Below are positions 28,734 to 32,065 of a stretch of DNA of 64,000 bases, piece after piece. Position numbers and translations under genes: made by a program. The stretch comes from Blautia parvula. GTDB taxonomy: Bacteria; Bacillota; Clostridia; Lachnospirales; Lachnospiraceae. Each line of letters begins with the position of its first letter. Positions within the stretch are counted from its first letter, which is position 1. Below the pieces are notes generated by a model, which was not told the DNA's origin, did not search any database, and saw nothing but the letters and a program-made list of their open reading frames with translations. The stretch spans positions 5,299,001 to 5,363,000 of the forward strand of contig NZ_CP084061.1 in NCBI RefSeq assembly GCF_020215665.1. Reading direction: 5' to 3'.

Positions 28734-29225
28734 ATGGATATATCAGAAAAAATACTGCAGCTCAGAAAGGCAAAAGGCTTTACCCAGGAGGAACTGGCAG
28801 AGAAGCTCAATGTTTCCAGACAGTCCGTTTCCAAATGGGAATCAGGCCAGTCTGTGCCGGAACTGGAGAAACTTGTGACTCTTTGCGAAGTCTTCCAGGT
28901 GTCCGCAGATTACCTGTTGAAACCCTCAGAACTGGATCAGCTTTCCATAAAAACGGAGATGCTGGAAAAACAGCAGCAGGAGCTTGCCATGGAGAGCAGG
29001 AAAAGGAAAGAGAAACAGTTCTGCATTTGGAGCTGTGTGGGGATTTATCTTACGGCATTTGCACTTTTGATACTTCTTCGGAATATTTCTTTAGAGAATG
29101 ATTTCCTCTGGAATATCTTTCCGGGATTTACGCTGCCGTTCATAATACTGGCGGTGGCCACAGCCGCTGCGATCATGGTCTGCCTGCGCCACAGAAACAG
29201 GCATGGGGCTGATTCGCGGCAGTGA
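28734..29225 (+). CDS. XRE-family regulator with membrane anchor
   Basis: A 163-residue protein. Residues 1-65 are a Cro/CI-type helix-turn-helix ([21 protein letters not shown]), followed by a short coiled linker, a basic stretch and two hydrophobic helices (about 100-120 and 128-150). A DNA-binding head with a membrane tail suggests a membrane-tethered regulator sensing the envelope. AAGGAGG precedes the start. It is a single gene with its own terminator; no target is evident, although the sigma factor operon follows. Confidence 0.85.
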
Positions 29226-29299: not shown

Positions 29300-29327
29300 T
29301 GTAACCATTTTGGAAGAACAGGTACTA
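29300..29327 (+). promoter_or_regulatory. Candidate ECF-type promoter of the sigma factor operon
   Basis: TGTAACC, like the AAC-containing -35 of ECF sigma factors (for example sigma X), is followed 16-17 bases later by GGTACTA, about 20 bases before the sigma gene start. It suggests autoregulation. The -10 half is less typical. Confidence 0.4.
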
Positions 29328-29348
29328 ATTAGAAGAGGGGGTGGGAAT

Positions 29349-29858
29349 ATGCAGGAATTTCAGGAACTGTACGAAAAATATAGCCGGTATGTCTACCACT
29401 TTTTGCTGAAACTCACCAACTCCAATGCGGACCTGGCAGATGAACTGACCCAGGAGACCTTTTTTCAGGTATACCTTTCACTTCCGAAATACAAAGGAGA
29501 TTCCGGTATTCTCACCTGGATCTGCGGAATTGCGAAAAATGTCTGCCGCAGATATTATAAGAAGAATCCTGTCACAGTGGAGTTTTCTGGGATTGAATCT
29601 GAGCTTTTAAAGGGTGGTGGATTTCCGGGCATGGAGGAGAAAGCGGAACAGAGGGAGCTGTATACCCGTGCGGTGCAGGAAATCATGGAAATGAAAGGAA
29701 AATACAGGGAGGTACTGATTTACCGCCTGTTTTTTGATATGTCCTTTCACGAGATTGCTGAGATCATGGGGATAAAGGAAAATTCAGCGAAAGTGATCTA
29801 TCACCGGGGGAAAAATATGATCCGCGGTAGAATGGAGGAATATGGGGATGACAGATAA
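29349..29858 (+). CDS. ECF-type RNA polymerase sigma factor
   Basis: A 169-residue group IV sigma factor. Region 2 has DELTQETFFQVYLSLPKYKG and LTWICGIAKNVCRRYYKK (promoter melting and -10 recognition) and region 4 near the C-terminus has LIYRLFFDMSFHEIAEIMG followed by KENSAKVIYHRGK (-35 recognition). The ATG at 29349 follows a GAGGGGG site; the earlier TTG at 29310 is unlikely. The next gene, overlapping by 11 bases, encodes an anti-sigma domain, the usual translationally coupled pair. Confidence 0.93.
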   Translation: MQEFQELYEKYSRYVYHFLLKLTNSNADLADELTQETFFQVYLSLPKYKGDSGILTWICGIAKNVCRRYYKKNPVTVEFSGIESELLKGGGFPGMEEKAEQRELYTRAVQEIMEMKGKYREVLIYRLFFDMSFHEIAEIMGIKENSAKVIYHRGKNMIRGRMEEYGDDR

Positions 29859-30516
29859 AAGTTTTTGTCCGGCGGTTAAGGATTTGCTGCCCCTCTATGA
29901 AGACGGGGCTTTGAGCCGGGAGACAGAGGAACTGGTCAGCGGACATTTGAGGCAGTGCGGGGCGTGCAGGGCGTATTATGAAGAGATGAAGGGAGAGGAG
30001 CCCAATCGGGAGGAGGAAACTGAAGAGAGGATGCGGTACCGAAAGATTGCAAAGCGCATCCATTACAGACGCTTAGGGGCCGCAGGTCTTGTCCTTTTGT
30101 TATGTATGGGTATTTTTATTGTAACAACCAGCATGTTTCAGAGAGCCATTGTCTCAGGGGACTGCATGGCGCCCACAGTCAGAGACCGGGAGACTTATAT
30201 CATGAATAAATGGGCGTACAAAACGGGTGCACCATGCCGCAGGGATATCCTTGTATACGAGAGAGACGGAGTTTTCTATATCACCAGAGTGATTGGGCTT
30301 CCGGGAGAGCAGGTGGAGTTAAAACAGGGCAGCGTGTACATAGACGGCCGGTTATATGAGGAATCCGGAACGTATCCCGGGGACTGCTCCATGGAGCTGA
30401 CAGAGCTTGGAGAAAATGAATATTTTGTGCTGGAGGATAATCGGCAGGCGGCAGACGGGAAAAATCATATAATCAGGAAAAGTGACATTGCCGGCAAAGT
30501 GATGGTCACACATTGA
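29848..30516 (+). CDS. Anti-sigma zinc finger fused to signal peptidase I-like domain
   Basis: A 222-residue protein of unusual architecture. Residues 1-42 are a zf-HC2 anti-sigma domain (Cys7, then H33-x3-C37-x2-C40, in HLRQCGAC). One membrane helix (about 73-93) follows. Residues 100-220 match the outer domain of signal peptidase I: SGDCMAPT, MNKW, RRDILVY, RVIGLPGE, a VYIDG loop and ENEYFVLEDNR near the end. The catalytic serine of the usual GxSMxPT is Cys106 and the lysine of YxKRVIG is Thr146, so standard activity is doubtful. It likely holds the sigma factor at the membrane and uses the outer domain as a sensor. The ATG at 29848 is 8 bases after GGAGGA. Confidence 0.85.
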   Translation: MTDKSFCPAVKDLLPLYEDGALSRETEELVSGHLRQCGACRAYYEEMKGEEPNREEETEERMRYRKIAKRIHYRRLGAAGLVLLLCMGIFIVTTSMFQRAIVSGDCMAPTVRDRETYIMNKWAYKTGAPCRRDILVYERDGVFYITRVIGLPGEQVELKQGSVYIDGRLYEESGTYPGDCSMELTELGENEYFVLEDNRQAADGKNHIIRKSDIAGKVMVTH

Positions 30517-30525
30517 GGAGGGCAG

Positions 30526-31350
30526 ATGAGAGAAATCATCAAATTGAATCAAATTTCAAAGGTATATAACCATAAACAGATCCTGGATCAGGTCGACCTG
30601 TCCATATACGAAGGGCAGTCCATTGCGTTTACGGGGCATAACGGCAGCGGAAAAAGCACCATGCTCAAAATTATCGCCGGGCTTGTAAGACCTTCCGGCG
30701 GGAAGGTGGTTTACAGGGAAAAACTGCTGTTTCACTACGTGCCGGAACGTTTTCCGAAGATGAATCTAACGGCATGGCAGTATCTGAAGAGAATGGGGGA
30801 GATAGACGGGATACCCGGGAAGGTTCTGGCGGACAGATGCGAAAAATTGTTTGCTGATTTTTTCCTGACAGAGATGGTACATACCCCCATGAAAGATCTG
30901 TCAAAGGGTACCTTGCAGAAGATTGGTGTAATACAGGCTCTTCTGCGGAGACCACAGGTGCTGCTGTTGGACGAGCCGCTGTCGGGACAGGATATGGACT
31001 CCCAGATGGTATTCATTCAGAAAATGAATGCCCTCAGAGCGGAAAAGGTAACGCTTCTCATGTCCTGCCATGAAAAATATCTGGTTGAAAGTCTGTCGGA
31101 TACGGTAATGGCTGTGGGACACGGACAGGTGAATGAGGTTGACATAACTGCAGGGCTTTTCGCCAAAGAATATATCCTGTGGTTTGAAAGGCAGGAAAAT
31201 GCTTCTTGGCCGGAAGAATACCGGCCATATATCCAGATAGCGGGAAAGGGCTGCAGAGCAAGGATTCCGGAGCATGAGAGCAGCCGGATGATAGTGGAGA
31301 TGATCCGGCACGGATGGAAACTGAGGGGGATGAGTGATGCGCAGGTTTAG
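30526..31350 (+). CDS. ABC transporter ATP-binding protein
   Basis: A 274-residue ATPase subunit. Walker A is GHNGSGKST (about residue 38), the signature is DLSKGTLQK, Walker B is VLLLDEPLSG and the switch histidine is SCHEK. The C-terminal 60 residues go beyond the ATPase core. It pairs with the membrane protein whose start lies within its end. Being in the sigma/anti-sigma operon, it probably exports a lipid, peptide or antibiotic in response to envelope stress; the substrate is not visible. The ribosome site GAGGAGG is 4-6 bases from the ATG. Confidence 0.9.
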   Translation: MREIIKLNQISKVYNHKQILDQVDLSIYEGQSIAFTGHNGSGKSTMLKIIAGLVRPSGGKVVYREKLLFHYVPERFPKMNLTAWQYLKRMGEIDGIPGKVLADRCEKLFADFFLTEMVHTPMKDLSKGTLQKIGVIQALLRRPQVLLLDEPLSGQDMDSQMVFIQKMNALRAEKVTLLMSCHEKYLVESLSDTVMAVGHGQVNEVDITAGLFAKEYILWFERQENASWPEEYRPYIQIAGKGCRARIPEHESSRMIVEMIRHGWKLRGMSDAQV

Positions 31351-32065
31351 CGGATTAGTAAAATATCAGATGCAGCAGTATTTCAGTACAAGCAGGTTTG
31401 CCATGCCCTTTGCTGTACTTATGATCTTACTGTACAGTATCTATTCCTCCAGACCTGTGGGGGTGGTGGACAGTCTGATGGTTTCCTGCGTATTTTTATT
31501 CCTGCTCATGGTGTGGATCGGGGTTACGGCCTGTGACATGGAACATGAGGTTTCAGAACAGATATTGATCCTGCGGGTACAGAGTGCCTGGAAATATTAT
31601 AGCAGCCATGCATGTTTCCTGTTTCTGATTGGAATGATAAGCAGTGCCATAGCCATTCTCTTTCCTGTGATCATGGATCTGTGCAGCCGGGGGCAGCTTT
31701 TTGAACGGCCGCTTAAGGCGGCTGATCTGCTGTACGGTTTCCCGCTTATGTCCGTAAGTGCCTTTTTGGGAGGCGCGCTGGGAGAAATCTCACATCCCGG
31801 ATTGAACAGGAACAGGAAAACAACCATTCTATTTACCTTCCTGCTGGCAGTCACAGCGGTAACAAAGGCAGCCATACTGAAAAATGTTCCGGTGCTGGCT
31901 GTTCTTTTATGGGTGGTTCCTCCCATATCGGATGTGACGGCAATGTTCGCGGGGGAATCTTGTTTTTCTGTAAATAAATGCAGTACGGCATTTATTATTC
32001 TGCTCATATCTGGTATGATTTGGACAGTAGTAAAAATCATGGGACTGAAGAAAAAAGGATTTTAG
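31337..32065 (+). CDS. ABC transporter membrane subunit
   Basis: A 242-residue hydrophobic protein with about six membrane helices, no signal peptide and no recognisable catalytic motif; the layout is that of ABC-2 type permeases. It overlaps the ATPase gene by 14 bases and has GAGGGGG 7 bases before the ATG at 31337. The assignment rests on membrane pattern and position. It is the fourth gene of the sigma factor operon. Confidence 0.75.
   Translation: MRRFSGLVKYQMQQYFSTSRFAMPFAVLMILLYSIYSSRPVGVVDSLMVSCVFLFLLMVWIGVTACDMEHEVSEQILILRVQSAWKYYSSHACFLFLIGMISSAIAILFPVIMDLCSRGQLFERPLKAADLLYGFPLMSVSAFLGGALGEISHPGLNRNRKTTILFTFLLAVTAVTKAAILKNVPVLAVLLWVVPPISDVTAMFAGESCFSVNKCSTAFIILLISGMIWTVVKIMGLKKKGF

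Follow-up and report, generated by a model that had tools for sequence, protein, structure and literature searches.

Why would a bacterium tie an anti-sigma factor to a signal-peptidase fold that lacks the residues with which signal peptidases cut? The question is raised by a four-gene operon of Blautia parvula (Lachnospiraceae), in a stretch of 64,000 nucleotides that we call the window (assembly GCF_020215665.1, contig NZ_CP084061.1; positions 5,299,001-5,363,000 of a 6.25 Mb single-contig genome). The operon is tight, and it encodes an extracytoplasmic function (ECF) sigma factor, an anti-sigma factor in which a zf-HC2 zinc finger is joined to an S26 (signal peptidase I) domain, an ATP-binding cassette (ABC) ATPase, and a permease. 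The answer that we favor, tentatively and by analogy, is that the operon could be an envelope-stress switch with a pseudo-enzyme as its receptor, an ECF-sigma counterpart of the AyrRABC system of Staphylococcus aureus. An initial annotation had placed these four genes and described a sigma factor gene overlapping a 222-residue anti-sigma gene; open reading frames and Pfam matches confirm it. Genomes and loci carry our own labels (G and L numbers).

The fusion protein and its catalytic positions

The fusion protein has the following features.

29848..30516, + strand: anti-sigma/pseudo-signal-peptidase fusion, 222 residues, start ATG at 29848, with zf-HC2 and Peptidase_S26 matches above the cut-offs
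29866..29970, + strand: zf-HC2 domain, residues 7-41, with C7, H33, C37, and C40 as presumed zinc ligands
30073..30129, + strand: single membrane helix, residues 76-94, positive side inward
30136..30507, + strand: outward S26 (signal peptidase I) fold, about residues 97-220, from Pfam, a structural model, and Foldseek
30163..30165, + strand: Cys106 at the catalytic Ser position (SGDCMAPT), by alignment to solved signal peptidases
30283..30285, + strand: Thr146 at the catalytic Lys position (YITRVIGLPGE), by alignment to solved signal peptidases
30433..30468, + strand: a degenerate form, EDNRQAADGKNH, of what we take to be box E; ordinary relatives read GDNxxxSxDSR here

Both domains score above the curated Pfam cut-offs, zf-HC2 at 2.6e-8 (34.3 bits against 22.2) and Peptidase_S26 at 7.2e-21 (75.3 bits against 22.9), and the protein reaches 88.3 bits with the NCBIfam signal peptidase I model TIGR02227, whose cut-off is 47. 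The initial annotation had proposed searching the two halves against these families, and both halves match. Eight Lys or Arg residues stand among the 15 residues that precede the membrane segment, and one after it. With a single membrane segment, this bias fits zf-HC2 inside and S26 outside, which is the topology first proposed for the protein. The four zinc ligands are invariant in all seven fusions described below and, following from what the zf-HC2 family does, the zinc-finger end presumably holds the sigma factor at the membrane. Could the two halves be separate genes that only appear to be joined, by chance or by a frameshift? This is ruled out by the fusions of seven genomes, three of which are close orthologues: each has both domains in one frame. 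The anti-sigma gene adjoins the ECF sigma gene in 7/7 fusion loci.

An AlphaFold2 model built from the seven fusion sequences (mean predicted local distance difference test, pLDDT, 77.8; predicted template modeling score, pTM, 0.56) has one long helix over residues 56-96. Its best Foldseek matches are SpsB (PDB 4wvg, E 2.7e-8) and then the non-catalytic SipA (E 1.1e-6). The outer domain resembles SpsB in fold, and in sequence around boxes B to D. It differs in having Ser and Lys replaced and box E eroded, and the fusion has in addition the zf-HC2 domain before the membrane helix.

The Ser-Lys dyad is the test for S26A enzymes, and the initial annotation had given it as background on signal peptidase I; it is absent from the window protein. 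Because Cys106 and Thr146 replace the dyad, we do not file the fusion as a signal peptidase, and judged by these residues its outer domain cannot be an ordinary one. Two orthologues (G255 and G256, 69-70% identity) have the same Cys, the same Thr, and the same four-gene order. Pairwise ratios of nonsynonymous to synonymous substitution rates (dN/dS) are about 0.13-0.21 for the S26 part and 0.07-0.17 for the neighboring genes, all of them rough values because dS is near 1 in most pairs. By this measure the S26 part is under purifying selection, and purifying selection together with the loss of the catalytic residues suggests that the domain is kept for a role other than signal-peptidase chemistry. 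The outer domain had first been read as a sensor or a cleavage switch. Purifying selection and lost catalysis better support the sensor, while a Ser-Lys protease does not survive the Cys, the Thr, and the degraded box E.

SipA of Streptococcus pyogenes (PDB 4n31) provides a precedent for such a role. It is a signal-peptidase fold without Ser-Lys, with Asp and Gly there, and its Asp can be mutated without effect on its role, so a dyad-less fold can be kept for something else (PMC4049620). An S26 fold without the dyad is the criterion for SipA-type homologues, and the window fusion has one, in a comparison that concerns only how the proteins work. The difference is that SipA is a pilus assembly factor, with no anti-sigma domain or sigma factor described in the parts of that paper used here.

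One could also see here an ordinary anti-sigma factor, in which the zinc finger or the membrane helix senses the signal and S26 is a roleless leftover. Class I zf-HC2 anti-sigma factors do share with the fusion the zinc finger, the membrane helix, and a gene that overlaps the ECF gene; they differ in the outer domain. A scan of genome contigs for sigma relatives, of which the best 80 of 544 were kept, finds S26 fused in a single locus (L103, from an Anaerocolumna metagenome-assembled genome). An anti-sigma-like frame is present in 78 of the 80, which indicates that ECF pairs of this kind do not need S26 to work; L134 and L135, 2 of the 79 sigma loci checked, showed no frame downstream. A second S26 match among these loci, L178, was set aside as a free signal peptidase about 2.7 kb 5′ of the sigma gene. 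A leftover is at odds with S26 dN/dS values near those of the neighboring genes, and with fold-defining S26 motifs that are kept across five fusion lineages, and we find this explanation quite improbable.

Distribution and history of the fusions

How common are these fusions? Our counts are lower bounds, given strict cut-offs and large draws in which scoring was limited to the best candidates of each genome. The fusion is in at least 3 of 20 genomes of the genus (the window's, G255, and G256), in at least 3 of 397 of the family at a strict cut-off (the window's, G054, and G127), and in at least 1 of 398 in a phylum draw, which is the window's own genome. A scan of 392 genomes of the order has, among the matches listed, matches starting at residue 1 only in the window's genome and in G268. 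Seven other listed matches, which start at residues 22-45, were fetched and rejected as signal peptidases; the HxxxCxxC motif was not found in them (in the first 90 residues for three, in the whole protein for four). A literature search, largely of open-access papers, listed none that describes the fusion of a signal-peptidase domain to an anti-sigma factor, and the parts of PMC7406223 and PMC8103513 used here do not mention one.

The catalytic positions differ from lineage to lineage. The window clade has Cys and Thr in 3/3; G127 and L103 have Gly at the Ser position and keep Lys; G268 keeps Ser and has Tyr in place of Lys; and G054 has Ser, Lys, and the GDN/DSR box all intact. The dyad is thus lost in four of the five fusion lineages (6/7 sequences). 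The G054 fusion (L044:5560-6258) could be an active protease tied to a sigma factor. It also favors an active cleavage switch, in which the S26 domain would cut itself or others with Cys as the nucleophile, something possible in principle. But the window clade would have to use Thr as the general base, in 3/3 sequences and with an eroded box E, Ser is lost in G127 and L103, and Lys is lost in G268. We give active cleavage a very slim chance.

For comparison we took 58 non-fusion S26 sequences, picked by the motif [SGACTN]M.[PN]T, a set from which more divergent enzymes are missing. A duplicate (S_L058_1477, which is the G256 fusion with a longer start) was removed before the S26 tree and the count were made. 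In a set of 89 sequences, the sigma factors of the seven fusion loci group together in a single clade, with support 99/97 in a tree whose bootstrap was not fully settled, and a KKNP motif is exclusive to them (7/89). Because the sigma factors form one clade, the simplest history is a single fusion followed by erosion in separate lines, and the sigma clade suggests one fusion and then repeated loss of catalysis.

Unfused signal peptidases vary too. The window's genome has a dyad-intact signal peptidase (L056:1259-1798) and a second signal-peptidase gene (L057:1479-2051 in G000, the window's genome), located 5′ of rbgA-like and rnhB-like genes, that reads QEGGMEPT where many relatives in the genus read QESSMEPT, with Ser changed to Gly and Lys kept. 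Two more ordinary-looking signal peptidases (L076:1465 and L085:1483) have Ala for Ser and Arg for Lys (QESAMEPT, HIRRVIGLPGE). Pseudo-signal-peptidases may be common in the family.

The promoter-like site and the ABC pair

The rest of the operon consists of the following features.

29300..29328, + strand: putative ECF-type promoter, TGTAACC-N16-TACTAA, 20 bp 5′ of the sigma start codon
29349..29858, + strand: ECF sigma factor, 169 residues; best start ATG at 29349, alternative start TTG at 29310
30526..31350, + strand: ABC ATPase, 274 residues (ABC_tran 7.6e-22)
31334..32065, + strand: membrane permease, 243 residues, with at least five hydrophobic segments

Sigma and anti-sigma genes overlap by 11 bp, a gap of 9 bp separates anti-sigma from ATPase, and ATPase and permease overlap by 17 bp. 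The sigma factor matches Sigma70_r2 (7e-13) and Sigma70_r4_2 (4.9e-10), and its ATG start is common to both orthologues. Directly 5′ of the operon is a gene for a Cro/CI-type regulator (28734-29222) with C-terminal hydrophobic stretches, which has counterparts at this position in G255 and G256 and stops 5′ of the putative promoter. By eye, a GC-rich hairpin and a T run lie between this gene and the operon.

What does the sigma factor control? A site of the form TGTAACY-N16-YACTAA stands 5′ of the first gene in 7/7 fusion operons. This includes G268, in which the gene order is reversed and the site is 5′ of the anti-sigma gene. The window has one match to the pattern, and 100 shuffles of it have none. 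A search of six whole genomes with a strict pattern and spacers of 13 to 19 returned 18 matches. Seven have the 16-base spacer; six of these are at the fusion operon and the seventh is inside a GntR-like coding frame. The remaining eleven are spread over five of the other six spacers. In the window's genome, the site 5′ of the operon is the sole intergenic one with N16 under the strict pattern. This strict test speaks against a broad regulon, since the N16 matches are the fusion operons plus the one in a coding frame. The switch looks autoregulated and mostly local, with a sigma factor that controls mainly its own operon. The shorter TGTAAC is present 5′ of 49/76 related ECF loci (L103-L182), so the −35-like half would not be special to the fusions and is likely a −35 element used across a wider set of clostridial ECF factors.

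Local control of its own operon would make the ABC pair the output of the sigma factor in the window clade. The initial annotation had called the exporter the output of the system. The output half of that claim gains support from the sole intergenic N16 site; the pair is a presumed exporter. By eye, the Walker A, Walker B, and H-loop motifs of the ATPase appear intact and its signature reads LSKGT; it has 81% identity to both orthologues. The window permease is without a Pfam match.

The four-gene order, whose genome count had been suggested at the outset, is kept in 3/3 fusion-bearing genomes among the 20 scanned in the genus. Among fusions, the ABC pair belongs to the window clade only: the flanks fetched for G054, G127, G268, and L103 gave no match to the ATPase or the permease. 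Distant relatives of the permease occur in 10/391 other genomes of the order, with an ATPase adjoining in 10/10 loci, and no sigma or S26 frame is in the fetched stretch of those ten. These flanks and the stand-alone permease/ATPase relatives rule out a general four-gene module that includes the ABC pair; the pair was probably added to the switch. The initial annotation knew of no characterised system with the layout of the window operon. Two of the 80 related sigma loci (L131, 2132-7403, and L167, 42-5308) have a sigma factor, an anti-sigma factor without S26, an ABC ATPase, and a permease in this order, with other ABC types, so it is not in itself new for an ECF pair to be followed by an ABC transporter, and this part of the layout is not unique. 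The permeases seem to be a family of about 240 residues (window 31334-32065, L197-L206) without a convincing Pfam model: none of 12 scanned matches a Pfam family convincingly.

The proposed switch and its rivals

In S. aureus, inhibition of signal peptidase induces ayrRABC, and the ABC transporter AyrBC is proposed to release preproteins; an operon that includes an ABC transporter can thus detect a shortage of signal peptidase and respond to it (PMC5727409). The window operon resembles it in layout: a membrane sensor (a proposed one in the window) beside a regulator gene, then an ABC ATPase and a permease, in one operon. The ABC ATPase and its permease-like neighbor in the window could play the part of AyrBC. 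Homologues of ayrRA are often without ayrBC in staphylococci and streptococci (PMC5727409), and the pair is likewise optional here. A difference is the regulator, since AyrR is a repressor (PMC5727409) and that of the window is an ECF sigma factor. DUF3169, the family of AyrA, has no match among the eight window proteins scanned.

In the switch that we propose, the dead S26 domain would act as a decoy of signal peptidase I, engaging what the real enzyme clears or binds. The likeliest ligand would be uncleaved signal peptides of preproteins, which would accumulate under a shortage or inhibition of the enzyme. Ligand binding would release the sigma factor, either directly or via proteolysis of the anti-sigma factor. 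The freed sigma factor would raise its own operon, including the ABC transporter, and the transporter would ease the stress by pulling out membrane-stuck preproteins or by exporting the insult. What the domain senses (uncleaved signal peptides, inhibitors of signal peptidase, or signal peptidase itself) and what the transporter carries are both inferred.

Two other explanations also give the S26 domain a role. The domain could be a mimic of a drug target, a receptor for antimicrobial lipopeptides and other attackers of signal peptidase, of the arylomycin type, which the ABC pair would export, by a logic like that of penicillin-binding sensors. It would fit a fold kept without catalysis and a self-contained operon. 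Structures of the E. coli signal peptidase with arylomycin-type lipopeptides are among the Foldseek matches (1t7d, 3s04, 3iiq), and PbpP is reported to be a beta-lactam sensor that acts on an ECF sigma factor (PMC8092216). Against it, the catalytic Ser and Lys positions are both altered in the window protein. These are the positions at which arylomycin-type inhibitors presumably bind. We regard a drug-target mimic as rather unlikely.

Alternatively, the housekeeping signal peptidase would cut the anti-sigma factor in trans, and the dead S26 domain would control access or recruit the enzyme. RsiV, which holds SigV in Bacillus subtilis, binds lysozyme and is then cut at site 1 by signal peptidase (PMC4183432), and RsiP, which holds SigP, is reported to behave likewise in B. 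thuringiensis (PMC8844934). They resemble the window system in that a membrane anti-sigma factor tied to signal peptidase holds an ECF sigma factor. The difference is that their signal peptidase is a separate protein acting in trans, and that RsiV itself binds lysozyme, whereas the window protein has the fold built in. The dyad-intact signal peptidase of the window's genome would be available for such a cut. Neither RsiV nor RsiP is known to have an S26 domain, which counts against this proposal, and we judge it unlikely.

How well does the proposed switch itself hold up? In its favor are the domains and topology of the fusion, its structural matches to SpsB and SipA, the loss of the dyad in four of five fusion lineages, purifying selection on the S26 part, the single clade of the sigma factors, the N16 site, the close spacing of the genes, and the staphylococcal precedent. 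A number of observations weigh against it. AyrA belongs to DUF3169, with six predicted helices, and does not have an S26 fold (PMC5727409), so that taking it for a signal-peptidase homologue would be wrong. The erosion of box E might weaken the binding of signal peptides. The ABC pair cannot be the general output of the family, because four of the five lineages lack it in their flanks, and a model of the permease was discarded at pLDDT 40. "Dead" is untrue of the fusions as a whole, because the dyad of G054 is intact and Lys survives in two others. The dyad is also missing from 7/58 ordinary-looking S26 enzymes; the contrast that favors the switch, a dyad in 1/5 fusion lineages against 51/58 other sequences (Fisher p 0.0025), comes from a test that sets as few as five lineages against 58 partly related sequences. 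The S26 tree, which has long branches, puts the fusions in three places with no single fusion clade; such a clade is not rejected (p-AU, from the approximately unbiased test, 0.211 with seven sequences and 0.355 without G268). As for the promoter-like site, a reversed control pattern has 41 matches in the same six genomes against the 18, so only the 16-base spacing stands out and the pattern as a whole is unenriched. The exact site is also 5′ of 4/76 non-fusion sigma genes with enough upstream DNA, which is what one would expect of an ECF group in which autoregulation is common.

The broader proposal is that an inactive copy of signal peptidase now serves as an ECF receptor that measures a shortage of the enzyme by decoy, arising once in Lachnospirales-like bacteria and losing catalysis repeatedly. 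We consider this possible, with a good deal of doubt. AyrRA of S. aureus is the one described route for sensing such a shortage that we found, and if the proposal is true, these bacteria would have a second solution, unrelated to AyrRA, for noticing an overloaded signal peptidase. The operon would then be a ready reporter for signal-peptidase inhibitors, and the fold of a drug target would itself be reusable as a sensor.

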